From assembly GCF_024600715.1 (NCBI RefSeq), contig NZ_CP102332.1:1-64000 (forward strand): DNA of 64,000 bases. Reading direction: 5' to 3'. Below the pieces are notes generated by a model. It saw only the letters and a program-made list of their open reading frames with translations. It made no database searches and was not told the DNA's origin. Below are positions 22,975 through 39,362 of this stretch, piece by piece. This DNA comes from Streptomyces changanensis (lineage in GTDB: Bacteria > Actinomycetota > Actinomycetes > Streptomycetales > Streptomycetaceae). Numbering within the stretch: position 1 is the first letter of the stretch; each line of letters starts with the position of its first letter. The position numbers and the translations under genes are program-made.

Positions 22975-23883
22975 TCAACCCGTTTTCCAGTATTTCTCCA
23001 CGCACGCGCTTGGCGCTCCAGGGGCGTGGCGATTTGGGATGCCGTTGTACCCGGTGAGGAGCGCTTCCTTGCGCTCTTGCGGTGTGCCGTGGTGGTCGGG
23101 TGCGTAGTACTGGTAGTCCCCGATCGCCTCCAATGCGGAGACGGCCTCTTCATAGTTTTCGGCCGTGAGGTAGCCGCTGTGGTAGGCGTGGGTCGCCCAC
23201 ACGCCCGCCATGCAGTCGGCGATCAGCTCAGTCCACTTCCCAGCCGGACGCCCGTAGGCGACTTGGTCGCGTTCGCTGTACTGCGCATGGAGTTCGTCGA
23301 CTACGTGGTGACCGAATTCGTGAGCGGTCACGATGGCAGCGGCGAAGTCCCCTCCCCGCTTCGAGATGTTCCCCAGGACCTTTCCTGTCCACATCTTCTG
23401 CATGGTGGTGACGGGTAGATAGATGGTTCCCAAGTAGCCGGGGGAACGCTCGTCGGCCGAGCAGTAGTAAGCGTTGGGCGTGTCATGAGCGATATCGAGA
23501 GGGCCGCCTCCCGGCGCGGGGCACTTGCTGCGAATCGGTTGCTGCTCGGGGGTGATGACCACGTAGCTCACCAATGGCTCACGAAGATTCATCTGTCGCG
23601 TGAAGAAGTCGGTCCAAAGCCTGTCGGCGTCTTGGACGACGTCGGTCACGTAGGCCGCCACGACCTCTTGGGTCGGCTGCCCAGAGCTTTGCAGTACGGA
23701 AGCACCCTCCTGCGCCGGTGGCACGTGCTGGTCACCCAGCCTTTCGGTGATGTCATCCGGCGGCACGGTAGCGGGTGCCGCGCGCCCCCCACCAGGGGAA
23801 GATGCCGCAGGCGTGCACCCCACAACAGTGCTCGCCAGCAGGAGCCCGCTGGCGAAAAAGCGTATGGACGCAGTCAGCTTCAT
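22975..23883 (-). CDS. Lipoprotein neutral zinc metallopeptidase (YpfJ-like)
   Basis: 302 residues from ATG 23883. The N-terminus MKLTASIRFFASGLLLASTV ends in a lipobox with Cys about residue 23 (STVVGC), so it is a membrane-anchored lipoprotein. The catalytic zinc motif is TAHEFGHHVVDEL (about residue 194-206), with the third ligand Glu in ELIADCMAGVWA; the HEFGHH...E..AD arrangement and the conserved CPAPGGGP and YYCSADE segments are those of the putative neutral zinc metallopeptidase family. Substrates are unknown. It also has more AT than its neighbours. The frame extends upstream for 88 codons but that part is out-of-character and lacks a lipobox. Confidence 0.85.
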   Translation of the reverse strand: MKLTASIRFFASGLLLASTVVGCTPAASSPGGGRAAPATVPPDDITERLGDQHVPPAQEGASVLQSSGQPTQEVVAAYVTDVVQDADRLWTDFFTRQMNLREPLVSYVVITPEQQPIRSKCPAPGGGPLDIAHDTPNAYYCSADERSPGYLGTIYLPVTTMQKMWTGKVLGNISKRGGDFAAAIVTAHEFGHHVVDELHAQYSERDQVAYGRPAGKWTELIADCMAGVWATHAYHSGYLTAENYEEAVSALEAIGDYQYYAPDHHGTPQERKEALLTGYNGIPNRHAPGAPSACVEKYWKTG

Positions 23884-24140
23884 GGTTTCCGGTGTACGCG
23901 GCACGATGCCCTGGTGCACCTTGGGTACCGCTGAGCGGGTGACCATCGGCCCGTGTTGTCCAGCGGGCGCCTGTCCTGCCTGCTGATCATCGCGCTCGCG
24001 CCCGACCGCCAGCGGCCCTGACCGTCGACCACTTCGCGCCCCGGACGCGACACCGGGAGCCTCGCTTCGTCTGAGCCGGCCAGGACACTGCTGCGGGCTG
24101 CTCATGAAGGAGCGGTCGAGTTTGCCGGGGGGGCACGATA
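23884..24140. other. Upstream region of the metallopeptidase gene
   Basis: About 250 bases with no gene seen. Probably holds the promoter of the gene at 22975-23883. Confidence 0.35.
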
Positions 24141-24223
24141 GGCGCACAGGACGTCGATGAAGACTGGCGTGGTTCCCGGGTGAGTGCGTCGTCGGCGAGA
24201 CCGACCAGGGCGTGTACGCCGCC
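24141..24223 (-). pseudogene. Small remnant of a pentapeptide-like repeat protein
   Basis: These 83 bases are clearly similar to 35573-35658 inside the membrane-anchored repeat protein gene: both begin GGCGCACAG and ACGTCGATG and share GCGTCGTCGGCGAG and AAGGCGT/CAGGGCGT blocks. The minus-strand reading gives GVYALVGLADDALTR against GVHALAGLADDAPDH in the intact protein. The IS beginning at 24226 cuts it on one side. Confidence 0.6.
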
Positions 24224-24225
24224 TA

Positions 24226-25095
24226 AAGCGTGTTGCGGAAGGTTGTGTTCAGGCTGGTCAGGGCTGGTTTTGGGGGTGGTCTGATCATGCGCCCAGGGCG
24301 AGGTTGTGCATGTGGGCGACGGCCTGGACGGCGTGATGGAGCCTGTTGCCGGGCTGTCGGAAGTCGCGGAGGATCTTGCAGTGCTTCATGCGGGCGAAGG
24401 CGTGCTCGACGCGGGCCCGGACCCGTCGGTGTTCGGCGTTGTCCTCTTCCTCACCGGGCAGGAGTGCCCGTCCGGGACGTTTGCGGTGCGGGACGACGAG
24501 GCCGGTGTGAGGCAGGCCCCGTCGCCCGGCACGGTCATGCCTTCGCCTCGCTCGGCCAAAGACCGGAGTCCCGCTATGCCTTCGCGTCCACGGTCGTCCC
24601 GGGGACCGGCCTGGCCGCCGCGATGACGAGTTTCGTGTCGGCGATGATGACCTGCACGTTCACGGAGAACCGGTAGTTGCGTGAGGAGGCTGCGACCTTC
24701 CGGTCGCGGACCGGGGTCAGGGTGCCGTCCACGATCCACAACCGCTCGACCACATCGGCAGGGCGGGTAGCCGGCTCGATGGCCAGGAGCGGCCGCATCC
24801 GCTGGATGACCCGGCACACTGTCGCCGGCGGGACGCCGAACAGCGGCGCGAGCTGCCGCATGGCGAGGTTCGTGCGGTAGTAGACGGCCACCAGCAGTAT
24901 CCGGTCGGCCGGCGGAAGGCACCACGGCCGGCCGCCCCCGGGCCCGTCCCCACCCCGCTCCCGCACGACCTTCAGCAGCCGCTCGAACTGCCGCATCCGC
25001 AGACCCGTGAACGTCACCACCCACAACGGCTCAGCCTTCAACACCCCGGCGACACAGGGGAAATGCCCGATCCGCAGCCCTCTGCAACACGCTTC
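24226..25095 (-). mobile_element. IS5-group insertion sequence with a broken transposase
   Basis: The ends carry inverted repeats: AAGCGTGTTGC at the left (24226 onward) and its complement GCAACACGCTT at the right (ending about 25095). The element is about 0.87 kb and holds one transposase on the minus strand. It inserted next to the small repeat-protein remnant at 24141-24223. Confidence 0.7.
24285..25044 (-). pseudogene. Frameshifted IS5-group (DDE_Tnp_4-like) transposase
   Basis: Probable start GTG 25044 (VLKAEPLWVVTFTGLRMRQF). The first frame has QLAPLFGVPPATVCRVIQRM and the first Asp in LWIVDGTLTPVRDRKVAASS and IIADTKLVIAAARPVPGT, then stops at 24574. The second frame supplies GIAGLRSLAERGEGMTVPGD, and a third frame gives VRARVEHAFARMKHCKILRD with the final Glu, ending at TGA 24285. 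Two frameshifts separate the catalytic pieces, so it is inactive. Confidence 0.75.
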
Positions 25096-25493
25096 AGGGG
25101 AACGCGGCCCGGTTGCGGTGGGTACAGGGCACGCAGGTCGGCGGTCGCCATCCGGCCCCGCCGGGGGCGGGTGAAGTGGTCGACGCCGCTCTAGGCGATC
25201 GTCTCGTCCAGGCCGGGCTGGTGGGTCGGACACGCAGCGCGTGAGAGGGGCGGCGGGCTTCGGCGAGCAGGTGGTGGTGCTTGACCGCGCCACGCCACAC
25301 GTGCGCCACGGGGACGGTGTCGACGGCCGCCGGCGCTGTGTCGACCACTGGCCGCACCCGGGTTCACACCGCTACAGCCGCTGCCCGCGCCCGCTCCGCC
25401 GGGCGGTCGACGCCGTCAGAGCCGTAGGCCCGGATCGTCGACCATTCACAAGCCCGCCAGGTGCTTGAAGAAGAGGGACGGAGGGCTCCAAGC
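25096..25493. other. Spacer between the IS and the aminopeptidase gene
   Basis: About 400 bases. A short minus-strand frame reads MATADLRALYPPQPGRVP directly into the right end of the IS; it may be the start of a gene cut by the insertion. Otherwise nothing is seen. Confidence 0.35.
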
Positions 25494-26276
25494 TCACGGC
25501 TGATCCTGCCTCGGCAAGGTGAGAATCTCGGCTCCGTCATGAGTGATAGCGATCGTGTGCTCACTGTGTGCTGCCCGGCAGCCTGTCGCGCTGCGGAGCG
25601 TCCACCCATCGGCATCAGTGACGAGTTGAGCGGTGTCCGCCATGACCCACGGCTCCAGTGCCAGCAGCAGCCCGGGGCGCAGTTTGTATCCACGGCCCGG
25701 CCGTCCGGTGTTCGAGACGTGCGGGTCCTGGTGCATCGTCGATCCGATGCCGTGACCTCCGAACTCGGTGTTGATCGGGTAGCCGGCCTCACTGAGGACC
25801 GTGCCGATGGCATGGGATATGTCGCCGATGCGAGCCCCGGGCCCGGCAGCGGCGATCCCTGCGGCCAGCGCGCGTTCGGTTGTACTGATCATCGCGACGC
25901 TCTCCGGGGGTCTTACGTCGCCCACGATGAAGCTGATGGCGGCGTCTGCAGCGACTCCACCTGTGGAGACGGCGAGGTCGAGGGTCAGCAGATCGCCGTC
26001 AGCAAGCGTGTAGTCGTGCGGCCGTCCGTGGAGTGCGGCGTCGTTGACGCCTGTGCAGATGTGGTGACCGAACGGGCCGCGTCCGAAGGATGGCTCGTAG
26101 TCGACATAACAAGACGTGGCTCCGGCCTCGACGATCATGGCCTTGGCCCACCGGTCGATGTCCAGAAGGTTCGTGCCGATCACGCTGCGGCTCTTCAGCG
26201 TCTGCAGGATGTCGGCGACCAGGGCACCTGTGTTTCTTGCCCGGGCCAGCAGGGTGGGGTTCAGAATCTCGATCAC
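25494..26276 (-). CDS. map: Type I methionyl aminopeptidase
   Basis: 260 residues, start 26276. It removes the initiator methionine from nascent proteins. All five metal ligands are visible: Asp100 (LTLDLAV), Asp111 (VAADAAIS), His175 (GGHGIG), Glu208 (ALEPW) and Glu239 (HSEHT); the substrate-binding His is in ALHGRP (His83). No N-terminal zinc-finger extension, so it is the short bacterial form. Organisms like this usually have another map in the ribosomal-protein operon; this looks like a second, regulated copy. It is divergent from an XRE regulator with a symmetric operator between them. Confidence 0.9.
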   Translation of the reverse strand: MIEILNPTLLARARNTGALVADILQTLKSRSVIGTNLLDIDRWAKAMIVEAGATSCYVDYEPSFGRGPFGHHICTGVNDAALHGRPHDYTLADGDLLTLDLAVSTGGVAADAAISFIVGDVRPPESVAMISTTERALAAGIAAAGPGARIGDISHAIGTVLSEAGYPINTEFGGHGIGSTMHQDPHVSNTGRPGRGYKLRPGLLLALEPWVMADTAQLVTDADGWTLRSATGCRAAHSEHTIAITHDGAEILTLPRQDQP

Positions 26277-26305
26277 GTAGCGCCCTTCTCACGCCGCCAA
26301 TAACT

Positions 26306-26329
26306 ATACCGGCCATACTGTACCGGTAT
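26306..26329. promoter_or_regulatory. Inverted-repeat operator between map and the XRE gene
   Basis: ATACCGG (26306-26312) and CCGGTAT (26323-26329) are exact reverse complements, and the second half includes the 8-bp palindrome TACCGGTA (26321-26328). The 66-base divergent gap is markedly AT-rich compared with the window. It is a natural binding site for the adjacent XRE protein and would overlap both promoters. Confidence 0.65.
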
Positions 26330-26342
26330 TAGAATCGGGATC

Positions 26343-26645
26343 ATGGTCAGATTGCCGCTCACTCCCGCAGAAGTCGAACGCGGAGAACGCCTCGGCGCCC
26401 TCCTGCGACGGGCCAGGGGAGAGCGCTCGATGCTCGATACCGCCCTGGCCGCACGGATCTCACCGGAAACCCTCCGGAAGATCGAGACGGGCCGCGTGGC
26501 CACCCCTGCCTTCCCGACCATCGCAGCGATCGCCGACGTCCTCGGCCTCTCACTCGACGCGGTGTGGGCCGAGATCAGCCAGCCCGAACGTGGCCTGGGA
26601 GCGACCGAATCCGGTCATCAAACACAAGAGCGGCTGGCCTCGTAG
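26343..26645 (+). CDS. XRE-family HTH regulator
   Basis: 100 residues from ATG 26343. The Cro/C1-type helix-turn-helix covers about residues 15-75: LGALLRRARGERSMLDTALA, ISPETLRKIETGRVATPAFP and IAAIADVLGLSLDAVWAEI. It has no sensor domain, so it may respond to abundance or a partner. It is divergent from map and likely represses itself and map through the operator between them. This map plus small XRE pair is a recurrent arrangement in Streptomyces as far as I recall. Confidence 0.85.
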   Translation: MVRLPLTPAEVERGERLGALLRRARGERSMLDTALAARISPETLRKIETGRVATPAFPTIAAIADVLGLSLDAVWAEISQPERGLGATESGHQTQERLAS

Positions 26646-27279
26646 GCCCCGATACCGCAGGAGGTCGCGCCTCGGACGGCCGGCGACCGGACGGGGCAGC
26701 CCAGCCCCCGGTGGGCGGAGAAAGCATGACGACGGCTTGGTGGCGGCGACCCGGCCGGTGTCTCGCGATGTCGGTGGTCCGTTCGGCGGCGCGCAACCCT
26801 GTGCCATCAGTCAGGGGAAGGCCGTCGGCGAGGCGCCGGCAGGCGAGCGCCAAGGTCGCGGCGGCCATGGCGCCGGGACAGGCGGAAAGAGCCACCCCAC
26901 CACGGCGACCGGGCGGCCGGGTGGCCAAGGAACGACAGGCGGCAGCCCGGGCGCGACGGAGGACCAGCGACAACCGGGCACGCGCCGCGCCGGACGGCTG
27001 CTGGGCGACGGTTGGACGACGACCTCGCGGCGCGGGGCGGTGAAAGAGAAGCAGCGGCGGGGCGACCGGACGACCACCCCGTGGCCGTGAGTCACGGCGC
27101 GGCGGCCGACGAGCCAAGCCGCAGGCCGCCGCGCGGCCGGGCCGGGCCGCAAGGCGCGGCCGGAGCGAACGGGGCGTGTGCGGGCTGGGTTCCGACAGTC
27201 GCCCGGCAAGGCGGGCTCCGGACGACAGCGGGCGAGCGCCGGGGCAGGAAGCCGAGACCCGTCCCTCACGGCACCTGAC
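26646..27279. other. Gene-free, G-rich spacer
   Basis: About 630 bases of extreme G+C with strong G+A excess on the plus strand (GGCGG/CGGGC runs). Lies between two convergent genes. Frames are open in both directions but featureless. Confidence 0.5.
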
Positions 27280-27315
27280 GAGGGCGGATGCGGGCTGCTG
27301 CTCGTATCCGCCCTC
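27280..27315 (-). terminator. Hairpin downstream of the FG-GAP gene
   Basis: GAGGGCGGAT (27280-27289) pairs exactly with ATCCGCCCTC (27306-27315). It is about 105 bases after the stop at 27422. Confidence 0.6.
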
Positions 27316-27421
27316 ACCGGCGCCTGGGACGCCGCCAAGGAGCGCCGCGGCGAAAGGACCCATCCGGGCGACCGTGCCGACCTCCCGTCAGGACTGGGTC
27401 ACCGGATGGAGGTCGACGTCG

Positions 27422-29698
27422 TCAGAGAACCGAGTCGACGGGTGCCGAGTCCCAGAGCAGGTTGCCCGGGGCAGCGGGCTTGAAGGGGGCCGCCGTGTCG
27501 CCGGTGCCCGCGTAGAACTTGGCGCCCGAGGTTCCGACCGCGTAGAGATCGGCCCGCCCGTCGCGGTCGGCGTCGCCGATGCCGACGAGGTGGGTGAAGA
27601 CGCCCCAGCCCGCGCCGATCCTGGTACGCGGCGCGAAGGTGCCGTCGCCCTTGCCCTCGTACAGCCACAGGACGCCGGCCTTGTCGCGGGCGACGAGGTC
27701 TCCGGCGGAGGTGCCGGTGATGTGGCCGGTGGCGGTGAGCTGGTTGTAGATCCCCCAGCCCGAGTCGATCTTCTTGCGGGATGCGAACGGCGCGCTCGCG
27801 CTGCCCGTGCCCCTGTAGAACCACACGTCGCCGGCGGCGTCGGTGGCGAGGAGGTCGGACTTCCCGTCGCCGTCGAGGTCACTGCCGCCGGTCATGCTGG
27901 GGTAGATCTGCCAGCCGACGCCGATCTTCGTACGGGCGGCGAAGTTGCCGTTTCCGTTGCCCTGGTAGAGCCAGAGCACGCCGTCCTTGTCACGGGCGAC
28001 GAGGTCGCCGGCCGGGCTGCCGGCGATGTTCCCGACGGCCTCCAGCTGGTTGTAGATCTGCCAGCCGCCGCCGACCTTCACCCGCCCCGTCGAGTACGGC
28101 TGCGGCGCGGACGCCACCTTGGCCGAGTCGTCGCGCCACAGCACGCCCGCGGCGTCACGGGAGAGCAGGTCTGGTGTGCTGTTGTCCGTGTAGTCGTGCA
28201 GGCCGGCCGTGCGGGCGACCTTGAAGGTGCCGGTCTGCGCGACGTCCGGGCCGATGCCGTTGAGCGGGGAGGCGGTGAAGTCCCAGGCGTAGTCGCCGCT
28301 GGGCGCGAACTCCTTCATGCCCTGGGCGTTGGGGAGCATCCCGTCCCAGCGGAAGTCGACGGATCCCTTGCCCTCGTAGGCGGCCGCCTGCGCGAAGTCG
28401 TGCCGCACGCTGCGGCCCGTGGCGACATGACGCACCGTCACCGAGCCCTGGGCGTTGGTCCGGGAGAGCACCCAGCGGAGCAGGGCCTGACCGTTGTTCT
28501 GGTCGAGGTCGACGACCTGGGGAGTGGCCGCGGTGTGCAACGTGAGCGCGGTCGGCTCACCGGTGCTCGCGATGAGCGTGGCGGCGGGCTTGCCGTCCGC
28601 CCCGAGTGCGATCCGGTAGACCCCCTCGCCGTGGGCGACCGTACCGCCGCGCACCAGGAGCGCGCCGTCGGCGGTGGGGACGGTGGACGAGGCGTGGTCG
28701 AGGAGCTTGACCGTGGCTCCGTCGACGAGGCTGACGGCACTGAGCGCGAAGCGCGGGGACGCTTCGGTCGCGGCGGCGCCGCCCGGAGCCGCGTACGTGA
28801 CCCAGTCCCCCAGGACGCCGATGTGCGGGCGGACGGAGTTGCCCAGGTCGGCCGCCTCCACGGCCGGCGTGCTCCCCGAACCGTCGCGGGTGGCGTGCAT
28901 GAGCTTGGCGTGCGCGGACGTCGGGGCGTCGACCCAGACCCAGCGGTCCCCGGAGAGGGCCATGTCGGTGTCGTACGCGGACACGCCCACCTCCCGCTTC
29001 TCGACGACGGAGGCGGTGGCGACGTCCACGACGGCGAGGTAGGAGCGGTCGGTGTCGGCGTCCGCCGAGACGTACCGGACGAGCGCCGAGCTGTCCGACA
29101 GGGCCTCGACGCTCTGGACCCTCGCGTTCGGCGTGAGGCCGGTCACCTGCCGGTCGCTGCCCGCCTGGTTCCCCTCGCCGATCAGACGGAGCTGGCCCAC
29201 CTTGCTCTGGCTGTCCCAGGACGAGAAGACGAGAGTCCTGCCGACCACGCCCTTCCAGAAGAGCCGGGTGTCGGTCTGGTTGACGACCGCGGGGTCGCTG
29301 CCCGGCGACGACATGTCATGGAGCAGGTACCGGGTCGTGCCGTCCTCCTTGGCGACGACGGTGTCGGAACCGCCACCGCGGTACCCGCTGTACCACTCCG
29401 GGAGCGTCGTGGTGGTGCCGTCGACGGTGCTGGTCCAGCGGTAGTACGTGTGGTCCCATCGGCGCTCCACCGACAGAAACCCGGTCGGGCCGACACTGAG
29501 GATCTGGTCGGTGCGGGGAAGGGAGATCACGCCGTCGACGGTCGCCCGGGCGTCGGCGGATCCGGCGGCCGCGGCGACGGCGGCGGTGGGCGTCGCGGCG
29601 ATCGCGGGCGCCGTCACGAGGCCCGCACCGACGGTCACGGCCACAACGGTGGAGACGGCCGCGACGAGTTGCTGTCGGGCGGGACGAACGTGGATCAA
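27422..29698 (-). CDS. Secreted FG-GAP/VCBS repeat protein
   Basis: 758 residues from 29698. Signal peptide: MIHVRPARQQLVAAVSTVVA with cleavage near AIAATP (about residue 33). Residues about 60-420 form a large beta-propeller-like region (WD-like strands, e.g. YLAVVDVATASVVEKREVGV). An Ig-like segment (VRWVLSRTNAQGSVTVRHVA, about 420-510) is followed by C-terminal FG-GAP/integrin-like repeats: SDLDGDGKSDLLATDAAGDV and GIGDADRDGRADLYAVGTSG with Asp-rich calcium-binding loops, each closed by a GVLWLYxG strand. Such proteins are exported and often bind carbohydrate or cell-surface partners; no enzymatic residues are apparent. Monocistronic. Confidence 0.85.
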   Translation of the reverse strand: MIHVRPARQQLVAAVSTVVAVTVGAGLVTAPAIAATPTAAVAAAAGSADARATVDGVISLPRTDQILSVGPTGFLSVERRWDHTYYRWTSTVDGTTTTLPEWYSGYRGGGSDTVVAKEDGTTRYLLHDMSSPGSDPAVVNQTDTRLFWKGVVGRTLVFSSWDSQSKVGQLRLIGEGNQAGSDRQVTGLTPNARVQSVEALSDSSALVRYVSADADTDRSYLAVVDVATASVVEKREVGVSAYDTDMALSGDRWVWVDAPTSAHAKLMHATRDGSGSTPAVEAADLGNSVRPHIGVLGDWVTYAAPGGAAATEASPRFALSAVSLVDGATVKLLDHASSTVPTADGALLVRGGTVAHGEGVYRIALGADGKPAATLIASTGEPTALTLHTAATPQVVDLDQNNGQALLRWVLSRTNAQGSVTVRHVATGRSVRHDFAQAAAYEGKGSVDFRWDGMLPNAQGMKEFAPSGDYAWDFTASPLNGIGPDVAQTGTFKVARTAGLHDYTDNSTPDLLSRDAAGVLWRDDSAKVASAPQPYSTGRVKVGGGWQIYNQLEAVGNIAGSPAGDLVARDKDGVLWLYQGNGNGNFAARTKIGVGWQIYPSMTGGSDLDGDGKSDLLATDAAGDVWFYRGTGSASAPFASRKKIDSGWGIYNQLTATGHITGTSAGDLVARDKAGVLWLYEGKGDGTFAPRTRIGAGWGVFTHLVGIGDADRDGRADLYAVGTSGAKFYAGTGDTAAPFKPAAPGNLLWDSAPVDSVL

Positions 29699-30122
29699 AA
29701 CGGGTTCCTCTCAAGCGATCGGGCGCGCAGCAGGAGCTGCACGCCCGGTCGGACTCATGATCACGTCAGAAGGTTGTGCTGGGTGGCGATGTCGTCGGGC
29801 TGACGGAGGTGGCGCTCAGGCGAAGTTGTCGTACCGGCGTTCGGTGCCGTCCACGTACACACCGACCTGCTCACGCGAGCGGAAGGGGACGCGCCGGTCG
29901 CCCGTGCCCTTGGAGGGGTACGCGCAGTGGGGATCGGCAGCGCGGCCTTGTGGGCAGCTCCCGCCGGGTGATCCGCCGTCATGTCGCTGACCGGGAGCAC
30001 GCGATCCTGGCAGCGGGCCCGCCATCGTGGGCGCGACGCAGGCGCGATCCGTGCCGGTGTCTTCGTCATCGAACTCATGCGGACGGCCGCCCCGCCGCCG
30101 ACAGGACCAGGTCGTCGAACCC
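29699..30122. other. Upstream region of the FG-GAP gene and a small unassigned tail
   Basis: A minus-strand frame ending at about 29818 reads QVGVYVDGTERRYDNFA, which looks like a genuine C-terminus, but no domain is recognised upstream. The rest carries nothing I can support. Confidence 0.35.
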
Positions 30123-30462
30123 CTACTCGACGCGGTCGAGGAAGCCGAGCACCCGGTGGTGAACCCTCATCGCGGACTGTTCGTCGTAGGACGGGAGGCT
30201 GCTGTCGGTGAACAGGTGCCTGTCACCGGGGCAGAGGAACAGCTCGGCATCGGCAGCCGCCCTGACGACCGCTCGGGCGGCGTCCACGTCCCCCTCCCCG
30301 GCGAAGAACGGATCCGCGTCCATGCCGTGAATCTGGACCGGGACGCCCTGGGGCCAGGCGCCGCCGAACTCCGAGACCGGGACGCACGCCTCGAGCAGCA
30401 GCGCGCCCTTCGCGCCGGGGCGGGTCTGGGTCAGCTTCTGCGCCGGCAGAACGCCGAGTGAT
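30123..30462 (-). pseudogene. C-terminal half of a dienelactone hydrolase family protein
   Basis: Reading on the minus strand: GSLGVLPAQKLTQTRPGAKG, LLLEACVPVSEFGGAWPQGV, then VQIHGMDADPFFAGEGDVDA with the catalytic Asp, and FLCPGDRHLFTDSSLPSYDE with the catalytic His, ending HHRVLGFLDRVE. The N-terminal half with the nucleophile is absent. The truncation point is at about 30462, where the GxSxG-like GFSLG is reduced to GSLGV. Confidence 0.75.
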
Positions 30463-30758
30463 CCGGCCGGGCCGGATCAGGTCCGGCTAGTGGCCGACCC
30501 GGCACGCTCCGAGGCGCCCGCCCCCGCACCATCCGCCGGAGCGCGGGACCAGGTCGCCGGGCCCGGGGTGACAGTGTCGGGCACCAGCTGGTACGGCGTC
30601 CGCTTGCGTCAGTGTTCACCCTGTGGCCTGATCCGCTGGCTCCGCCACGCCCGTTGCTGCGGCTGCTGCCCCGCCGGGTCCAGCACCCGCCATCCTCTCC
30701 CGGTTCGGGCGTGCCAGCCCGGGGGCGTATCGCGCCGCGCGGTGGCCGCGCGGCGGTG
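30463..30758. other. Spacer without a gene
   Basis: About 300 bases between the hydrolase fragment and the methyltransferase stop. Nothing is seen. Confidence 0.4.
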
Positions 30759-31910
30759 TCAGGCGGCGGCGCCGGGTACGGGCCGGGGCGCCAAGGTCGG
30801 CTCCCAGCGGCGGCGTACCCCGTCGACCTCGCTCCAGATCCACTGTTCGTGCTCGGTGCGGGTCATGCCGAAGTCGTACAGCGAGGGCCGACCGGCTTGC
30901 TCCCACTGCTCCCAGGCACCGGCGATCTCCTCGTGCAGGTGGCGTGGCCCGCCCCGCTCGACGGTCGTCCGCCCGTCCGGGTGATCGGTGAGGCAGGCCC
31001 AGGAGGAGTGAGCGTCGTGGAGCCAGGCGGTCGCCGCCGCGGCGCCTCTGTCGGTGGAGACCCGTACATCGGGCAGGAGGACGCGCAGCGCGAACAGCAG
31101 GCTCGCGTCGGCCAGCCCCGCGGCCGCCCGGCCGAAGACGGCATCCTTGGGGCCGCAGGGATGGCGCTCGCGGACCCGGTGCAGCTCCAGGCCCTGCTCG
31201 ACGCCGCGGGCGGGCATGAACATCCCCAGCCCCTGCACCCACCCCTCCGCCGAGGCCCCGTCATCGGCCACGGTCAGCGCGACGTGCCCAAGGCGCCCCC
31301 ACGGTGTGACGATCCGTCCGCCCGGCCGGGTCTGTTCCACCCACGCCCACGGCACCTCCTCCACCGCGTAGGTGGCGATCACGCGGTCGAACGGACTCCC
31401 TTGCAGCCACCCGGCAGCGCCGTCACCGACATGCACGGCGACGACGAGCCCGGCCGCCGCCAAGCGGCGCTCCGCCTCGGCGGCCAGGTGCAGGTCCACC
31501 TCCACGCTGGTCACCACCCCGGGCCCCGCCCGATGCGCGAGCAGAGCGGCGTTCCACCCCGTCCCGGTCCCGAGTTCCAGGACACGGTGGCCGGGGTCGA
31601 GGCGGAGGGAGTCCAGCATGTCGGCGACCACCGACGGGCACGACAGACTCGACGAGGGCAATCCGCCCTCGAGTTGCGTGACCGTGGCGTCGAACGGGCC
31701 TTGGTAGACGGCAGCGGCCCACCGCTTCTCATCGACCGACCGCGTCAGCGGCTCCCACGCGTGGCCGTCCCACGTCCACACCGTGTCGGGCGTGAATACG
31801 TGCCGCGGCAGGGCGGTCATGGCGGAACGGACCCACGGCGAGTGCCCTGGCCAGCAGCCGTTGCGCTCCATGGCGGCTGCCTGCCGCCGCGCGTGCTCCT
31901 CGACGCTCAC
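30759..31910 (-). CDS. PIMT-like (protein-L-isoaspartate) O-methyltransferase of a putative RiPP system
   Basis: 383 residues, GTG 31910, whose first base is the last base of the TAG of the 37-residue peptide gene (one-base overlap, so translationally coupled). The N-terminal part has RSAMTALPRHVFTPDTVWTW, as in PCMT enzymes, then GPFDATVTQLEGGLPSSSLS. The SAM-binding motif I is VLELGTGTGWNA (residues 110-121), acidic SVEVDLHLAAEA follows, and YAVEEVPWAWVEQTRPGGRI is the motif around the active site. The C-terminal 180 residues are an extension beyond the ordinary 220-residue PIMT, as in the RiPP-associated methyltransferases of graspetide, lanthipeptide (FxLD) and imiditide loci. It probably methylates a side-chain carboxylate of the upstream peptide. 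Confidence 0.8.
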   Translation of the reverse strand: MSVEEHARRQAAAMERNGCWPGHSPWVRSAMTALPRHVFTPDTVWTWDGHAWEPLTRSVDEKRWAAAVYQGPFDATVTQLEGGLPSSSLSCPSVVADMLDSLRLDPGHRVLELGTGTGWNAALLAHRAGPGVVTSVEVDLHLAAEAERRLAAAGLVVAVHVGDGAAGWLQGSPFDRVIATYAVEEVPWAWVEQTRPGGRIVTPWGRLGHVALTVADDGASAEGWVQGLGMFMPARGVEQGLELHRVRERHPCGPKDAVFGRAAAGLADASLLFALRVLLPDVRVSTDRGAAAATAWLHDAHSSWACLTDHPDGRTTVERGGPRHLHEEIAGAWEQWEQAGRPSLYDFGMTRTEHEQWIWSEVDGVRRRWEPTLAPRPVPGAAA

Positions 31911-32023
31911 TACTTCTTGTGCTTCCCGTCAGACGGAAGCGGAGGCGGCACCTGCCCGTCCGCGTTGCCCGGCGGCGGGGTCCCCGTCGACGGGTCCGGT
32001 GCCGGCTTGCTGTGACCACCCAT
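31910..32023 (-). CDS. 37-residue Pro-rich peptide, candidate RiPP precursor
   Basis: ATG 32023 with the strong ribosome binding site GGGAGG seven bases upstream, ending at TAG 31910-31912. The sequence runs MGGHSKPAPDPSTGTPPPGN and then ADGQVPPPLPSDGKHKK. Features: no Cys, Ser/Thr mostly near the start, eleven Pro, and two Asp-Gly dipeptides (Asp22-Gly23 and Asp32-Gly33), the pair most prone to aspartimide formation, plus Asp10-Pro11. It overlaps the methyltransferase start by one base. A peptide this small would be missed by most gene finders. The precursor role is inference from the neighbour and the Asp-Gly motifs; it could also be a mere small protein. Confidence 0.65.
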   Translation of the reverse strand: MGGHSKPAPDPSTGTPPPGNADGQVPPPLPSDGKHKK

Positions 32024-32424
32024 AGCGACCTCCCGGTGACGGTGAAGGTGATGCCACCCATGGTGACGGCCTGCAACGGAACGTGTCCTCGCTTCGGCGT
32101 CATTGACCGGATCCGACGCACGCCCGACGGAAGCAGACGCCGGCCGCGGTACCCCCGGTCAGCGCCTCTCGAGGCCGGCACGGCCGACGGCTCAGTAAGG
32201 CAGCCACGCAGTGTCCGACCCCGCGCACCGGAGCGGGGGTGGCCTCGGCACCGGCGGGCCGGGTAGCCCCGACGGCTCCGGGCGCGACGACGTGATCATG
32301 AGTGATAGGGACGTCGGTTCGCATTGACGGTGGGTGGTCACCATTGATGTGCCGGCCCGGCGAATGCCGGTTCTCCACAGCCCTCGGCGCCTCACACCGT
32401 TGGAGTCCTCCGCTGGGGACAGGG
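32024..32424. other. Upstream region of the peptide/methyltransferase operon
   Basis: About 400 bases between the peptide and the LysE stop. A minus-strand frame MTPKRGHVPLQAVTMGGITF overlaps the peptide's ribosome binding site but does not look like a protein. The promoter must be here; no clear hexamers. Confidence 0.35.
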
Positions 32425-33051
32425 TCACAGGGTGCGGGCCAGGAGCATGGCACCCATCGCGAGCATGGTGGCTGCGACCAAGGTGTCCAGCACTCGCCAG
32501 GCGATGGGGCGAGACAGGACGCCGCTGAGGAGTCGGGCGCCGTAGCCGAGACCTGTGAACCACACCAAGCTCGCCAGCATCGCGCCCAGGCCGAAGACCC
32601 AGCGCAGTGAGCCGCGGTCGGCGGCGACCGAGCCCAGCAGCAGCACGGTGTCCAGGTAGACGTGCGGGTTGAGCCAGGTCATGGCCAGGCAAGTGAGCAC
32701 CGCGGTGCGGACGGAACCCGCCAGGGCGCCCTTCGTCGTCAGCGCTTGTCCGGCGGCAGGTCGCATTGCTCGGCGAGCAGCCAGAACGCCGTAGCAGATC
32801 AGGAAGCCGCCGCCGGCCAAGCCGACCGCGGTCAGTGCTGCGGGCCACGCGCCGACCACGGCCCCAAGCCCGGCAACGCCGAGGGCGATGAGGACCGCGT
32901 CGGATACGGCACAGATGCCTACCACCGCAAAAACCGCCTGCCCGCGCGCTCCCTGCCGCAGCACGAACGCGTTCTGTGCGCCGATGGCGACGATGAGGGA
33001 CAAGCCTGTACCGAAGCCGGCGATGGCCGCCGGAAGAATGCCGCTGCTCAT
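32425..33051 (-). CDS. LysE/ArgO family amino acid exporter
   Basis: 208 residues, start 33051. Five or six membrane helices with the family N-terminus GFGTGLSLIVAIGAQNAFVL (the GAQN motif is diagnostic) and WLNPHVYLDTVLLLGSVAAD (the NP-(H/Y)-x-D signature). It exports basic amino acids such as lysine or arginine. Divergent from an ArgP/LysG-like regulator, the usual partner. Confidence 0.9.
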   Translation of the reverse strand: MSSGILPAAIAGFGTGLSLIVAIGAQNAFVLRQGARGQAVFAVVGICAVSDAVLIALGVAGLGAVVGAWPAALTAVGLAGGGFLICYGVLAARRAMRPAAGQALTTKGALAGSVRTAVLTCLAMTWLNPHVYLDTVLLLGSVAADRGSLRWVFGLGAMLASLVWFTGLGYGARLLSGVLSRPIAWRVLDTLVAATMLAMGAMLLARTL

Positions 33052-33121
33052 GCCGTCCGACGCTAGGGAGGACCTCGGCCTTAGTACAGCTAAATGTTCT
33101 TACGTATCATTAGCCATTGTG
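33052..33121. promoter_or_regulatory. Divergent promoter/operator region lysE-argP
   Basis: This 70-base gap is AT-rich in its second half (TAGTACAGCTAAATG, TTCTTACGTATCATTAG), matching the type of T-N11-A site that LysR proteins bind. Both genes must start here. Confidence 0.5.
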
Positions 33122-34027
33122 ATGACTGAGCTCCCCCTCGACCAGGTGCGTACGCTGCTCGCCGTCGTCGACGAGGGCACCTTCGACGCTGCCGCTGCGG
33201 CTCTGCATGTGACACCTTCCGCGGTCAGCCAGAGGGTCAAAGCGCTCGAACAGCGCACCGGCCGGGTGCTACTGATGCGCACGAAGCCGGTCCGACCGAC
33301 AGAGTCCGGGCAGGTGGTGGTGCGCTTCGCGCGCCAGCTGACCACCCTGGAGCGGGATGCTCAGAGGGAACTGGGACTCGCAGCCCGGCCGCACGGGACC
33401 CGGCTGCCGATCGCGGTGAACGCGGATTCCCTGGCCACCTGGTTCCTCCCGGCCCTCACACGGGTGCCCCAGAGCCCGCCGATCTGCTTCGACCTGCACC
33501 GCGAGGACGAGGCCCACACCGCGGCGCTGCTGCGCGAGGGGAAAGTGATGGCGGCCGTGACGTCGTCGGCCGAGCCCGTGGTGGGCTGCACGGTGCGCCC
33601 GTTGGGTCTGGCGCGATACCTGCCGGTGGCCAGCCCGCGGTTCGCAGCGCACCACCTGTCGAACGGCCCGCTCGAGCGCTGCCTGCCCGACGCGCCAGTG
33701 ATCCTTTTCGACCGGCGTGACGAGCTGCAGGACCGGTTCGTCCGATCCCTCACGCCTGACGGGTCGGGCGCCGGCCGGCTCCGGCACCACGTGCCCACGT
33801 CGGAGGGCTTCTGTGACGCAGTGGCCGCCGGTCTTGGCTGGGGCTTGGTCCCGGAACCACAAGCGGAACCGTTGCTGCAGTCGGGCGCCCTCACGCAGTT
33901 GTCGCCAGGGCGCCCCGTGGATGTGCCGCTCTACTGGCAACAGTGGAAGCTCGATGTGCCGGCGCTCGAACTCGTGGCCAAGACCATCGCCGCCGCAGCA
34001 GCCGAATCCCTGCACACTCCGGATTGA
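33122..34027 (+). CDS. ArgP/LysG-like LysR-family regulator
   Basis: 301 residues; ATG 33122 (a GTG lies directly before it). HTH: VRTLLAVVDEGTFDAAAAAL and VTPSAVSQRVKALEQRTGRV, the standard LysR N-terminus with the ArgP-type VSQRVKALE. The effector domain (about 90-290) includes LPIAVNADSLATWFLPALTR, which is conserved in ArgP/LysG and binds lysine or arginine. It activates the divergent exporter when basic amino acids are abundant. Confidence 0.88.
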   Translation: MTELPLDQVRTLLAVVDEGTFDAAAAALHVTPSAVSQRVKALEQRTGRVLLMRTKPVRPTESGQVVVRFARQLTTLERDAQRELGLAARPHGTRLPIAVNADSLATWFLPALTRVPQSPPICFDLHREDEAHTAALLREGKVMAAVTSSAEPVVGCTVRPLGLARYLPVASPRFAAHHLSNGPLERCLPDAPVILFDRRDELQDRFVRSLTPDGSGAGRLRHHVPTSEGFCDAVAAGLGWGLVPEPQAEPLLQSGALTQLSPGRPVDVPLYWQQWKLDVPALELVAKTIAAAAAESLHTPD

Positions 34028-34722
34028 CGCCGGCCCTCCTCCTGCGTCCCGGCGGAGTAACCGCCATCCCGTCGCAGCAGGGCCCAGCTACGCCTCGCCC
34101 CCTTCCCCCACCCGGCCCGCGGAGGCCGCCGAGACCCCGGATGCCACTCGTCGTCCTGACCGGGTAGGCCCCCTGCACCACATGCCGGCAGCCCACCCTT
34201 CGGTACGGCAAGGGCGGTATAAACCCCGGTGCGCATCCTGCCGCCAGGTACAACACGGGCGGCTGCCGCGGCCGAGAGGACGAGGCGTATGAACGACCCG
34301 GCGCCCCCACCGGTCGGCATACGGGTCCGGGCGACGGCAACCGCCCCGGTGTGAGGCCAAGGGCCGCACTGTTGTCGAGCATCGACGCCTTGGACCACCT
34401 ACGCGTAGGCGGTGACGTCGACATTCGTCACGGGACGGACAGTGGACATGGCCTGGCTTCCCGGCTCGTGAGCGGCCCTTCGCGGCCTTGCGGGGGCGGC
34501 CGACGGTAGGGTGCCACCGCCTCCATAACTCCATACCGGCATCCAGAATCGGCACGATGCGTTTTTCCTCGTCGGGCGGGCTGACGACCTTCAACCGGTT
34601 CGCTTCGGTGACTACCTCGCTGCCGAAAGGGATGGTCAATGGCTCGCCGCCTCAGGCGGCTCCGGCCCACCCTGGCCGCCCGCGGTGCCGTCATCGAGGG
34701 GGGCGGCGTTCTCGCCCCTCTC
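34028..34722. other. Degenerate region with a possible gene start
   Basis: About 700 bases. A minus-strand frame begins at 34639 with MTIPFGSEVVTEANRLKVVS and reads well for about 40 residues (EKRIVPILDAGMELW), then degenerates. It may be the start of a broken gene. No function assigned. Nothing else. Confidence 0.3.
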
Positions 34723-36030
34723 CTATGGATTCACGGGAAGCCAAGCAGAGGGAAGGACGACCGGCACAGAAGCAGTGATGACAGCAGCGAGCAGCCCTGA
34801 GGGGGCTGGACCCGTCGCTTCGCCGAAGGACACGTCGCCGCCGAAGAACCTCACGCTGGTGAAGGACACCTCGTCACCGGAGAACGTCGCGCCGCGGAAC
34901 GACACCGCGCCCCTGGAGAACGCCGCGAGGCCGAAGGCCACCGTGCCACCGGAGAACAACGCACCGCCGAAGACCACCCTGCCACCGGAGAACTCCGCGC
35001 GACGGAAAGACACCGTGCCGCCGGAGAACTCCGCGGCGCCGAAGGACACCGTGCCGCCGGAGAACACCGCACAGCCGAAGGACACCCTGCCGCTGAGGAA
35101 CGTCGCGCCGTCAAGGAACACCTTGCCGCTGAGGAACGTCGTGTGGTCGAAGGACACCGTGCCGCCGGAGAACGTCGCGTCCACGAGGGACACCGTGCCG
35201 CCGGAGAACACCGCGCGGCGGAAGGACACCTTGCCCCCGGAGAACGTCGTCCGGCGGAAGGACACCTTGCCGCCGGAGAACACCGCGCCATCGAAGGACA
35301 TCGCACCGCCGGAGAACACCACGTCGTCGAAGGACACCGTGCCGCCGGAGAACACCGCGCGGCTGAAGTCTGTGTTGCAGTCGATGGTGACGCCGGTGAG
35401 ATCGAGGTCGCATCCCTGCCAGGAGCGGTGAGTTCCCTGGGGGCGTCGGTAATGGTCGCCGATGAGGCGCAGGATCGTGTGCCGGACGTTGCGAAAAGCC
35501 AGATAGCGGTGGTGTTCCTCTTGGTGGGCGGGGTCGTTGCCGGGGTCAGGGGTGAAGGGAAGCTGGAGGTAGGCGCACAGAACGTCGATGCATGTCTGAC
35601 GCAGGCTGTGGTCGGGAGCGTCGTCGGCGAGGCCGGCCAAGGCGTGGACGCCGCCGAGTCGGACGGCTGGGGACTCGGAGCCGAGTTTGTCGACAGCCTG
35701 GGAGAAGCGTTCGGTGTGGAGGCGGGTGGCTTCGCGGTGGGCGCCGGCTTCGTCGACGCGCTGGCGGCGGTAGGCGACGACGAGGGCGACGAGCGCGCCG
35801 GCCCCGGCAACCACGCCGAAGGAAAGTTTCACCAAGTCGAAGAGCGTCTTGGCGTCGAGCTTCGCGGTGCTGTCGATCTCCTGGAAGTCCAGCAGGACAA
35901 CCAAGCTGTAGAAAACGCAGCCTGCGCCCAGGATCGCGGCGACGAAGGTGACGGTCAGGGCCCGGCCGACCTTCCATAGTCGCAACTCCTGATCATTCGG
36001 GACGGATCGCGGCCTTCGGCTGGCTGTCAT
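34723..36030 (-). CDS. Membrane-anchored protein with about fifteen 12-residue FSGG repeats (pentapeptide-like)
   Basis: About 435 residues from ATG 36030 (weak ribosome binding site). Two membrane helices at the start (LTVTFVAAILGAGCVFYSLV and VKLSFGVVAGAGALVALVVA), then a helical linker including RLGGVHALAGLADDAPDHSL. From about residue 225 the protein repeats a 12-residue unit of the form FSGGxVSFxxAV about fifteen times, predicted to wind into a right-handed beta-helix like pentapeptide repeat proteins. Typical units are FSGGTVSFDD and FSGGKVSFRR. The last 25 residues are a hydrophobic tail. DNA-mimic or scaffold roles are known for related folds. A small fragment of the same family lies at 24141-24223. 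Confidence 0.75.
   Translation of the reverse strand: MTASRRPRSVPNDQELRLWKVGRALTVTFVAAILGAGCVFYSLVVLLDFQEIDSTAKLDAKTLFDLVKLSFGVVAGAGALVALVVAYRRQRVDEAGAHREATRLHTERFSQAVDKLGSESPAVRLGGVHALAGLADDAPDHSLRQTCIDVLCAYLQLPFTPDPGNDPAHQEEHHRYLAFRNVRHTILRLIGDHYRRPQGTHRSWQGCDLDLTGVTIDCNTDFSRAVFSGGTVSFDDVVFSGGAMSFDGAVFSGGKVSFRRTTFSGGKVSFRRAVFSGGTVSLVDATFSGGTVSFDHTTFLSGKVFLDGATFLSGRVSFGCAVFSGGTVSFGAAEFSGGTVSFRRAEFSGGRVVFGGALFSGGTVAFGLAAFSRGAVSFRGATFSGDEVSFTSVRFFGGDVSFGEATGPAPSGLLAAVITASVPVVLPSAWLPVNP
34840..35370. repeat. Tandem 36-bp repeats inside the FSGG gene
   Basis: On the plus strand GCCGCCGGAGAAC-type blocks recur every 36 bases, separated by a variable 12-base segment and AAGGACACC. About fifteen copies are visible. 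Near-identity at DNA level suggests recent expansion by slippage or unequal crossing over. Confidence 0.75.
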
Positions 36031-36550
36031 GAGGGTGGAGACAAGCACTCGGGCATCGGCAGTTGCAGTCGGCGCTCGTGGGGTTGGGTGTGGTGGATCA
36101 GAGGCTACGAGCGGCCCGTCGCCGTGTCGCCGCCACCGAGGCACCCACCGCCGTCCGGCCGGGCCACCGCCGGGCCGCGCAGCCGGCTCGCGCCGTTCGG
36201 CCTCCCCCCGGCCACCGCCAGCCGCCACGCACGTCGTCTCGACCGCCCACCCGACCGCCGCCGTCAGGTCCCCTACCCAGTCGCCGCACCCATGTCCGGC
36301 CGCGCCCCGCCGCCCCGCCGCCCCGGGCCGCCGCCGCCCTACGGCGCTGCGTCGCCGCTGTGAGGTCGTCGTCCGGCCGCCGGGTCGCCGTCGTCGTTCG
36401 CGCCGCCGGCGGGGCCGTTGTCCAGCCGCGTGCTGCGCTGGGCCGCTCCATTGCTCCTCTGCCGCTCCGGCCCCGGTGGCGGATCCGTTCCGCCGCCCCG
36501 CCCCGCCCCGCCCGCAGTGTGCCCGCCGCTGTCATGTTCAGCGGCCGTTC
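36031..36550. other. Gene-free, pyrimidine-rich GC spacer
   Basis: About 520 bases with excess C+T on the plus strand. Every frame is open only because of composition. Between the FSGG gene and an IS5 relic. Confidence 0.5.
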
Positions 36551-36988
36551 GTGCCCACCAAGAAATCATCCGGTGCAAAGAGCCACTTGATCAACGAGCG
36601 GACCGGTCTGCCCCTCTCGATCGGCATCTGCGCCGCGATGACGCACGGCAGTCAGGGACTTGAAGCCCTGGTACAGGGCATACCGCCCATCGCTCCCGGC
36701 GCGGGCCCCGCCGACCGGCGGCCCGCCGAGCTCCATGGCGACAAGGGCTACGACTACGACGACCCGCGGGAATGGCCCCGCTCGCGCAACATCACCCCGC
36801 GCCTCGCCCGCAGAGGCATCGAGTCCTCCCAGAAGCTGGGCCGCCACCGGTGGACCGTGGAGCGGACGGCGGCGTGGCTGTCCGGGTGCCGCCGCCTGCA
36901 CCAGCGCTACGAGCGCAGGGCCGAGCATTTCCTGGCCTTCGCCGGTATCGCGGCCACCCTCATCCCCTGCCGCCGACTCGGCGGCTGA
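36551..36988 (+). pseudogene. C-terminal half of an IS5-family transposase
   Basis: The frame reads AKSHLINERTGLPLSIGICA, ALVQGIPPIAPGAGPADRRP, ELHGDKGYDYDDPREWPRSR with the second catalytic Asp, and GRHRWTVERTAAWLSGCRRL with the third catalytic Glu, to a stop at 36986-36988. This is the same family whose start survives at 1155-1290. The N-terminal half is missing. Confidence 0.8.
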
Positions 36989-37119
36989 GCCGTCCCCTAT
37001 GATCTCGATTATGGGCAACTTCTCCTGAGCGGACCCTGACGGTCCACAGACATTCGCCCGGCAGGTGCCGGGCCCCGTCAGCGTGCCCGCGCGCTCACCT
37101 CAGGAGACACGACCACACC

Positions 37120-37950
37120 ATGTCCGTTCACTCTGCTCGTTCCGCCCTGGACGACCGCATCGCACGCCTGCGACAGCTCGCCCACGCCGACCCCCGGCTG
37201 GAGGGCGTACTGCTCTACGGCTCGTGGACCGTGGGTGAGGCCGACGCCCATTCCGACATCGAGGCGTACCTCTACATCCAGGACGACTGCCTCGCCGACT
37301 TCGACGGCCCCGGCTTTCTGGCACAGCTCGCACCGCTCCAGCTCTCCTACACCAACATGTACGGCGTCCTCGCCGTCATCTTCGACGACCTGATGCGCGG
37401 CGAGTTCCACCTCACCCCGGCCGGTCCCGGCATCGACGAAGTCCCCACCTGGCAAGGGATGGTGCACCTACCCCGCCCCGACGACGCCATCCTGCTCGAC
37501 CGCACCGGCCAGCTCACCCAGGCCGCCCGACAGCTGGCCACCTTCCAGCCGCCCGAGCCGGTGACCACCGCCCAGCAGCTCACCGACGAGCTGACCAACT
37601 GGACGCTCATGCTCGCCCACGTCCTGGCCCGCGGCGAGATCGCCCGCGCCCACGCCCTGCTGCACACCGTCATCGCACCCCAGCAGCTCCAGCTCTGCCG
37701 TCTGTTGCGCAACAGCACGGCCCACTGGCTCACCCCCAGCCGCGCGCTCGAACAGGACCTGCCCGACACTGACCGCCATCGCTACGCCTCCACCACGGCT
37801 ACCGCCTGCGACCAGGACGTGCGCACGGCGGCACGCAACAGCTGGCGCTGGAGCCGCGACCTGGCCGCCGAGGCCGCCGACCGCTGGACCATCCACCTGC
37901 CGCACGAACTCCACGAACAGATCAGCAACCTCCTGAACGACCCTCGCTGA
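37120..37950 (+). CDS. MNT-type nucleotidyltransferase-like protein (lincosamide/aminoglycoside adenylyltransferase fold)
   Basis: 276 residues from ATG 37120. The nucleotidyltransferase core has LLYGSWTVGEADAHSDIEAY, with the GS and the DxE-type acidic pair (the Asp and Glu of SDIEAY) that bind Mg2+. The remaining 200 residues are helical, beginning PGIDEVPTWQGMVHLPRPDD, as in LinF/Lnu(F)-like and other antibiotic adenylyltransferases. Substrate unknown; antibiotic modification is plausible but unproven. No partner gene. A clear hairpin follows. Confidence 0.75.
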   Translation: MSVHSARSALDDRIARLRQLAHADPRLEGVLLYGSWTVGEADAHSDIEAYLYIQDDCLADFDGPGFLAQLAPLQLSYTNMYGVLAVIFDDLMRGEFHLTPAGPGIDEVPTWQGMVHLPRPDDAILLDRTGQLTQAARQLATFQPPEPVTTAQQLTDELTNWTLMLAHVLARGEIARAHALLHTVIAPQQLQLCRLLRNSTAHWLTPSRALEQDLPDTDRHRYASTTATACDQDVRTAARNSWRWSRDLAAEAADRWTIHLPHELHEQISNLLNDPR

Positions 37951-37961
37951 CATATCCGGCC

Positions 37962-37989
37962 GGGGCCACCGGACTCACCCAGTGGCCCC
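37962..37989 (+). terminator. Terminator of the nucleotidyltransferase gene
   Basis: GGGGCCAC (37962-37969) pairs with GTGGCCCC (37982-37989), 12 bases after the stop. Confidence 0.65.
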
Positions 37990-38544
37990 AGCCTGGCGGC
38001 CACGGCCGCCGCACAACGCCAATCAAGAGCATCTCTGAACCGCCGGGCCGAGGCCCCCACCGCCGTCCAACCGGGACACCGGGCCGGCGCCCCGCTGCCC
38101 CGACCCCTTGCAGCGCCGCTCCGCCTCCGGCCCGCCCACTCCACCGCCGCCCGCCGAGGGGTTCCTCGATTGCCACCTGGCGCCGGTGGAGGACGGACGG
38201 CGGCGAGGGCAGACCGGCGAGCGGTAGCCAGGGCGGCAGGGCGGCTCCACTCCCGCGCCACTGTCACGGGTGCCGCTGTCCGTCGTCTCGCCGCCCCGTC
38301 GCCGCGCCTGGCACCACCGCTGCCCCGCCCCGCACCGCCCCGCCGCGCGTCGTCCGCTGCCGTCCGGTCCGGCGGTCGGTCGCTGCCCCTGCCACGGCCC
38401 GTACCCCACCGCCGCCCTCCGGCCGCCACGCTGTCTCGTCGCCTCTCTACCAGTCTGTTCCCGCCCCGTAGGCCCGTCTCACCGGTCCCGACCTCCTCGC
38501 TGTTCGTCTCTCTGATGCACGCACCGCGGAGAAGACCTCCACAC
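37990..38544. other. Gene-free, pyrimidine-rich GC spacer
   Basis: About 550 bases. Excess C+T on the plus strand, comparable with 36031-36550. No supported frame. Confidence 0.5.
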
Positions 38545-39234
38545 ATGGATCGAGCCGGTCAGGCAGGACGACCTCCCTCACCTGCGACAGCTCGCCGACG
38601 GACGGGCAGCACGGAGGGCCGTATCGACTGGTCCATGGTGAGGGTGGACTCCACCTCCTGCCGAGCCCACCAGCATGCCGCCGAAAGCGCGTAGGGAACC
38701 CCGCGGGCGCCGGGAAAGGACGCACGCCCCGGCAGCACCGTCCCGGCGAGGGCCCGGACGATTTCGGAGCGGTCTCACCGGCAAGATTCATCTCGCCGTA
38801 GGGGGCGGGCGTCCTCCGCTGGCCCTGCTGATCACTCCGGGCCAGTGGGGCGATGTCCCACAGCTCATCCCCGTGATGGATCGTATCCGCGTCGGCCGCC
38901 TCGACGACGGGCGTCCCCGCACCCGCCCTGATCATCTCGGCGGCGACAAGGCGTAATCCTCGCGCCGTTACCGCCGTTACCGCCGCTGCCGGCGTCGACG
39001 GCAGATCAAGCACACCATCCCCCGACAGGGCAGCCAGCCGGCCAACCGACAGCGTCGCGGCAGTCGCGGCGGCCGACCGACCGGCTTCGACGAGACGATC
39101 CACAAGCGAAGGAGTGAAGTTGAGCGGACGACCAACGCCCTCAAGAACTTCCGGGCCGTAGCCACGAGGTTCGACAAACGTGCCTATGCCCCAGGGCACC
39201 GTGACTGTCCTGGCGATCCGGCTCCGGCATTGGG
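38545..39234 (+). pseudogene. Decayed IS5-family transposase
   Basis: Pieces in several frames: DWSMVRVDSTSCRAHQHAAE (first Asp), LTGKIHLAVGGGRPPLALLI and RPRTRPDHLGGDKA (second Asp), and TGFDETIHKRRSEVERTTNA (third Glu), ending near 39234. At least three frameshifts and stops break the frame. Terminal repeats were not recognised. Confidence 0.7.
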
Positions 39235-39362
39235 GATGGATCCATCATCCCTCTGTGGGGAGGTGCCTGTCATCGTTCTTCGGAATGACCTGTAGGTCTG
39301 ATTTGCACCTTTAAGCTTGCGGGCAACAGGCACAACGCACCGATCAGACACGGGAGTCGAGA

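Follow-up and report, generated by a model that had tools for sequence, protein, structure and literature searches.

The imiditides, or type I pamtides, are a class described in 2023. Pamtides were defined in PMC10787088. According to this paper, type I precursors are ~45 amino acids long, abound in Gly, Pro and Asp, are charged at their ends and have a conserved Asp close to Pro or Gly; no cyclase accompanies them. In PMC13001092, 1,414 type I pamtides are predicted; its passages on this class name two type I systems as expressed and give no biological role. The pair SpaA/SpaM of Streptomyces sparsogenes is described as two genes, a peptide followed by a PAMT with a C-terminal domain (PMC10787088). 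Changing the last five residues of SpaA to alanine abolished modification (PMC13001092, PMC10787088). In the imiditide pair NmaA/NmaM of Nonomuraea maritima, a homologue of PIMT makes the class-defining aspartimide on a linear peptide (PMC13001092). The same source describes imiditide peptides as rich in Gly, Pro, Asp and Lys, and gives WxxxGxP as a motif of RiPP-associated PIMTs.

The locus studied here lies in a stretch of 64,000 nucleotides from Streptomyces changanensis (contig NZ_CP102332.1, positions 1 to 64,000), which we call the window. Like SpaA/SpaM, it consists of a peptide gene followed by a gene for a PAMT with a C-terminal domain. The peptide resembles published type I precursors in being rich in Pro, Gly and Asp, in having a conserved Asp near Pro and Gly and a basic C-terminus, and in lacking Cys and an accompanying cyclase; as in imiditides, Lys is frequent and the enzyme carries the WxxxGxP motif. 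Likeness to SpaA and NmaA is judged from their published descriptions rather than from a sequence alignment with the window peptide. In contrast to the type I length of about 45 residues, the peptide has only 37 and is conserved along its whole length. Type II pamtides, or cysimiditides (FcaA/FcaM), share the two-gene layout with a PAMT, but their precursors contain two CxxCxGxG motifs, which the window peptide lacks.

Every testable feature of type I pamtides and imiditides was found: a two-gene locus, no primary RiPP enzyme, an extension of more than 100 amino acids with WxxxGxP, and a precursor with much Gly, Pro and Asp, whose ends are charged, whose C-terminus is basic and whose conserved Asp lies near Pro or Gly. 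We therefore file the pair in this class, which is already known; it does not open a new one. In the open literature we found no description of the PPxNxD pattern that marks the peptides discussed below, and this subfamily may well be tabulated in the supplements of PMC10787088.

Layout of the locus and its methyltransferase

Both ORFs lie on the minus strand (Table 1). The peptide ORF starts with ATG at 32023 and ends with TAG at 31912..31910. The last G of this TAG is the first base of the enzyme's GTG, and given this one-base overlap the two are probably translated together. The 37 residues include 10 Pro, 6 Gly, 4 Lys and 3 Asp. The initial annotation had described precisely this arrangement, a 37-codon ORF with a ribosome-binding site that overlaps a 383-residue PIMT-like ORF by one base, and had noted many prolines, the absence of Cys and two Asp-Gly sites (Asp22 and Asp32); all of this was confirmed. 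A scan of 30400-32500 found no sigma-70 promoter or terminator, a result that says little for Streptomyces.

Table 1. Features of the peptide-methyltransferase locus in the window.
Feature	Coordinates	Strand	Basis
Precursor peptide gene, 37 aa, MGGHSKPAPDPSTGTPPPGNADGQVPPPLPSDGKHKK	31910..32023	-	Coding selection, 113-sequence alignment, enzyme adjacency
Ribosome-binding site GGGAGG	32029..32034	-	Five bases before peptide ATG
PIMT-like methyltransferase (PAMT), 383 aa, GTG start	30759..31910	-	Pfam, NCBIfam, AlphaFold2 model, 1dl5 comparison
Codon of Asp22, predicted modified residue (Asp-Gly)	31958..31960	-	Asp in 112/113 aligned peptides
Codon of Asp32, Asp-Gly, alternative site	31928..31930	-	Not conserved, Asp in 30/113
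Basic tail KHKK, residues 34-37, probable recognition element	31913..31924	-	Conservation; function inferred from SpaA
C-terminal extension of enzyme, about residues 239-383	30762..31196	-	AlphaFold2 model; 1dl5 cover to residue 366
WxxxGxP motif of enzyme, WEQAGRP, residues 336-342	30885..30905	-	Alignment of 37 sequences

The enzyme had likewise been annotated as PIMT-like with a C-terminal extension, and this description holds: the ORF matches the Pfam PCMT domain (E=1.8e-30), and the AlphaFold2 model features an extension of about 145 amino acids. The best NCBIfam match, almost over the whole length, is TIGR04188, the family of graspetide-associated methyltransferases. Its score of 253.7 bits falls short of the curated cut-off of 380. 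The enzyme is thus similar from end to end to the graspetide PAMTs AmdM, ThfM and SsfM, but it differs from them in scoring below the family cut-off, in having no adjoining ATP-grasp gene and in lying beside a peptide without fixed ester donors. Scores against the four PIMT equivalog families are also under their cut-offs (108.8/188, 94.8/159, 91.2/282 and 78.8/359 bits). The C-terminal domain is common to the enzyme and the Thermotoga maritima PIMT (PDB 1dl5), with a match that extends to residue 366; the identity between the two proteins is 24%. We know of no peptide partner of the T. maritima enzyme. Across 37 aligned sequences, Trp336 and Pro342 of the WxxxGxP motif are invariant and Gly340 is present in at least 90%. 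By its model and motif, the enzyme has the predicted fold and the signature of RiPP-associated PIMTs.

Selection on the peptide and linkage to the enzyme

Because 153 ORFs of at least 30 amino acids overlap 15 kb of this DNA, an ORF of such a size means little on its own. We ran the enzyme against 150 relatives, 392 genomes of the genus and wider genome contigs, and inspected the frames upstream of the matches. The contig search yielded five enzyme loci, in Streptomyces sp. DH12 (two), Streptomyces sp. CNQ085, Embleya hyalina and Embleya scabrispora. A gapless 37-codon register of the peptide was present in 31 of the 32 loci of a codon test, the sole miss being a fused remnant (L113, the same fusion as L040 below); one further locus, L095 in genome G028, was left out. 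Over 465 pairs, mean pS was 0.551 and mean pN 0.245, a ratio of 0.44 that is somewhat lowered by the choice of rows, which used a motif fixing about eight or nine positions (H4, K/R6, P17, P18, N20, D22, G/S23, V/L25 and K/R37). pN was smaller than pS in all 465 pairs, and the other two frames of the same DNA gave pN/pS ratios of 1.27 and 1.66. Between the window peptide and its nearest relative, L031, pS was 0.393 and pN 0.025. The start codon is preceded by similar G/A-rich stretches in most of the 31 loci. This codon pattern shows that the peptide is encoded by a real gene, kept by purifying selection.

When the protein database was searched with a profile, 91 peptides matched at E<=10, of which 87 reached E<=1e-3. 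Database matches, the typed set and the window peptide were combined into an alignment of 113 distinct peptides. Position 22 is Asp in 112/113, the exception (P0210) looking like a deletion fusion. This Asp stands in the context GNADG and is followed by Gly in 103 peptides or Ser in nine; in NmaA, by contrast, the published modified Asp is followed by His. Pro18 is found in all 113 sequences and Asn20 in 108. The basic end is similarly well kept, with Lys at position 37 in 108/113 and Lys or Arg at position 36 in 107/113. Acidic residues elsewhere are less constant (Asp at position 10 in 82/113; Asp or Glu at position 3 in 55/113). Ser or Thr forms a majority solely at positions 12 (63/113) and 21 (73/113), neither of which is invariant. 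Conservation runs along the whole peptide, with no hypervariable core. The initial annotation had placed the modification at Asp22 and/or Asp32. Only 30/113 peptides have Asp at position 32, where most of the others have Thr, Ser, Asn or Gly; we therefore predict Asp22 as the site, and modification at Asp32 was rejected. The partner methyltransferase most likely modifies the proline-rich peptide at a single, fixed Asp.

The association of the two genes was examined in both directions. In a quick tree of 75 enzyme rows (maximum likelihood, no bootstrap), the window enzyme groups within a clade of 35 enzymes (SH-aLRT 100). An intact peptide lies upstream in 32 of these, and one (L040 in genome G284, labelled by hand) has a fused remnant. 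The last two lack the peptide; one of them, L057, is the most divergent member, and in the other, L054, the enzyme match is missing its N-terminal part. A single clade for all 36 enzymes labelled PPxNxD was rejected (p-AU 0.009); three labelled rows fall into a sister group, two of them (L013 and L108) being the same gene; the third is L150. The sister clade has related peptides of other patterns (RDxDGQHPD and PPGNxDGQS), so the linkage reaches beyond the PPxNxD subfamily.

In the reverse test, a profile of 28 peptides was run against 384 genomes of the genus and matched 58 places, spread over 50 genomes, with E<=0.01. The best 25 of the 58 (E<=5e-13) all lie directly beside the enzyme. Eleven of the next 13 (E 1.5e-11 to 4.5e-6) are beside a PAMT or, in G284, fused to one. 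No PAMT was found within ~8 kb of two weaker matches, G180:C142:676511 and G404:C16:472829. Among the remaining 20, the match G180:C16:1629 is beside a PAMT and most of the others are near chance. The co-conservation of peptide and enzyme that the initial annotation had put forward as a check is thus present whichever partner is searched for, indicating that a conserved coding peptide is tied to its methyltransferase.

Genomic surroundings, distribution and atypical copies

Near the pair, the window encodes a LysE-type exporter along with a regulator of the ArgP/LysG type, a protein with pentapeptide repeats, a transposase of the IS5 type, an M24 peptidase and an FG-GAP protein. The frame of the pentapeptide-repeat protein (34723-36228, minus strand) overlaps that of the transposase (36029-36988, plus strand). 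Further along, the plus-strand ORF at 37120-37950 matches the C-terminal domain of LinB-like lincosamide nucleotidyltransferases (PF21418, E=7.4e-21). No RiPP cyclase turned up when 14 ORF readings nearby, from 21930 to 40624, were scanned with Pfam. The sole ATP-grasp RiPP maturase above cut-off in this genome is a TIGR04187 match at 6296728-6297636 of the chromosome (6.30 Mb), and as far as these scans reach, the claim of the initial annotation that no other RiPP maturase is adjacent is borne out; further PAMT-like matches lie at 2.19-2.35 Mb. When 386 called genes from 33 loci were clustered, no gene besides the enzyme was common to the window and at least two other loci. Seven of the 33 loci have the commonest other cluster, at 2.7-6.2 kb from the enzyme; six have the next. 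Genes were called with a simple script that used the G+C content of the codon positions. It missed the enzyme in L032, L035 and L117, and small shared clusters were judged by eye, so that weak sharing between loci could be overlooked. With no common third gene in the 33 loci, a larger shared cluster around the pair was rejected.

The enzyme occurs at E<=1e-80 in 28 of 392 genomes of the genus. On plasmids (E<=1e-60), it was found at 10 places in nine records, all from Streptomyces, Embleya or Kitasatospora. Plasmids of S. virginiae and S. antimycoticus carry the peptide just upstream of the enzyme, where no gene is listed, and a Kitasatospora plasmid has it annotated as a hypothetical protein of 41 amino acids, MGNREKDQPLDKGKAPPGNADGKVDKPDPGSDGKHRKPKQD. 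In a class-wide sample, the peptide was detected at E<=1e-5 in 7/394 genomes, six of which belong to the genus of the window. In the window, the pair lies 31 kb into a 6.8 Mb contig. Some copies (those of the window, G224, G407 and G422) lie within ~130 kb of the ends of large contigs and others are on plasmids, which may point to a spread through unstable chromosome arms.

Several copies depart from the common layout. In L040 (G284:C1:1547512-1548672), approximately the first 21 peptide residues run in frame into the enzyme, and the Asp and the tail are lost. P0210 joins about the first 20 residues in frame to another coding sequence, again without the modified Asp. In L043/L117 (G407:C1:7944996-7946240), the peptide is intact and the enzyme is probably broken, with an in-frame stop interrupting the matched stretch at codon 37. 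Together with the enzymes that have no peptide, the fused remnant and this stop suggest that some loci are decaying. Two peptide-like ORFs, L097 (G180:C142:676511-676621, E 7e-11) and L098 (G404:C16:472829-472936, E 1e-10), differ around the Asp (NADSRV and NRDDQI) and are possibly orphan precursors served in trans.

Double loci were seen twice. L127 (G069) has two PAMT genes, at 7822-8955 and 12453-13631, each accompanied by a peptide of its own; the peptide of the second gene follows another pattern. L096 (G127) has PAMT genes at 300-1367 and 1649-2770, the second of which is preceded by a frame that by eye resembles the end of an ATP-grasp protein; as G127 belongs to another family and the contig has just 5.1 kb, this could be contamination. 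Finally, six distant PAMTs (L009, L010, L012, L016, L019 and L020; 38-42% identity) lie behind a different conserved frame rich in Gly, Asp and Asn (...SDSGNKHGGGGSDEGGNTNDGQ...), which is probably another type I pattern.

Alternative explanations and proposed mechanism

The resemblance of the enzyme to TIGR04188 raises the question of whether the peptide belongs to a graspetide pathway, in which an ATP-grasp cyclase would act in trans and the methyltransferase only on the ester-bridged product. The near full-length family match and the presence of one ATP-grasp RiPP maturase in the genome point that way. However, the match stays below the curated cut-off, the maturase is far off at 6.30 Mb, the clustering of loci gives no shared gene besides the enzyme, and Ser or Thr in the majority at two variable positions means that there are no fixed ester donors. 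We consider this pathway highly improbable and rejected it. An ordinary isoaspartate-repair PIMT, with the small ORF serving as a translated leader that merely couples translation, would account for the catalytic domain, which is a PIMT domain. Yet the peptide is conserved in its amino acids as well as in its frame, with one near-invariant Asp; the enzyme scores below all four PIMT equivalog cut-offs, has an extra domain and the WxxxGxP motif and is patchily distributed, unlike a housekeeping protein. A repair function was therefore rejected as exceedingly improbable.

As a third possibility, the peptide could be a leaderless intracellular regulator or modifier that is altered at Asp22 and neither trimmed nor exported, a small switch instead of a natural product. 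Conservation from end to end (His4, Lys6, Pro16-18, Asn20, Asp22, Gly33 and Lys37) with no variable core is in line with such a switch, as is the lack of an exporter or protease cluster common to the loci. The missing exporter does not discriminate, however, since pamtide loci in the literature likewise consist of just two genes, and the patchy distribution with copies on plasmids suggests an accessory trait. We regard this role as unlikely. The reading of the pair as a stand-alone imiditide-like RiPP, with which the initial annotation had started, is supported by the coding selection, the linkage in both directions, the motif, the domain and the absence of an adjacent maturase. The pair is thus very probably a minimal RiPP operon of the imiditide or type I pamtide kind.

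Asp-Gly is the residue pair that cyclizes most easily. In the imiditide reading, the enzyme would bind the linear peptide, probably via the conserved basic tail, and methylate the side chain of Asp22 with SAM as donor. Attack by the backbone nitrogen of Gly23 would then expel methanol and close an aspartimide. Relative to the unmodified peptide, the expected mass shifts would be +14 Da and then -18 Da. The aspartimide may slowly open to isoaspartate or aspartate. By analogy to SpaA/SpaM and NmaA/NmaM, we infer the reaction and the order of its steps, the role of charge in recognition and the dispensability of any further enzyme.

More speculatively, the family might be one of leaderless pamtides whose functional product is the entire 37-residue peptide, a Pro-rich scaffold that has no variable core and bears one enzyme-made succinimide or isoaspartate at a fixed place. 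The two-gene cassette would have moved between chromosomes and plasmids of Streptomycetaceae, and its product would be a conserved signal or regulator and not a diversifying antibiotic. We offer this proposal tentatively and hold it to be rather improbable as a whole. To the known class, the locus adds a peptide that is constrained along its whole length and has a single conserved Asp, together with a cassette that is self-contained and also found on plasmids of Streptomycetaceae. The substrate is short, with one invariant Asp in its 37 residues, and nature provides variants with Gly or Ser after the Asp and with His-Lys-Lys or Arg-Arg-Lys tails. Along with the decayed copies and the peptides without an enzyme, this makes both recognition and function in the family testable.
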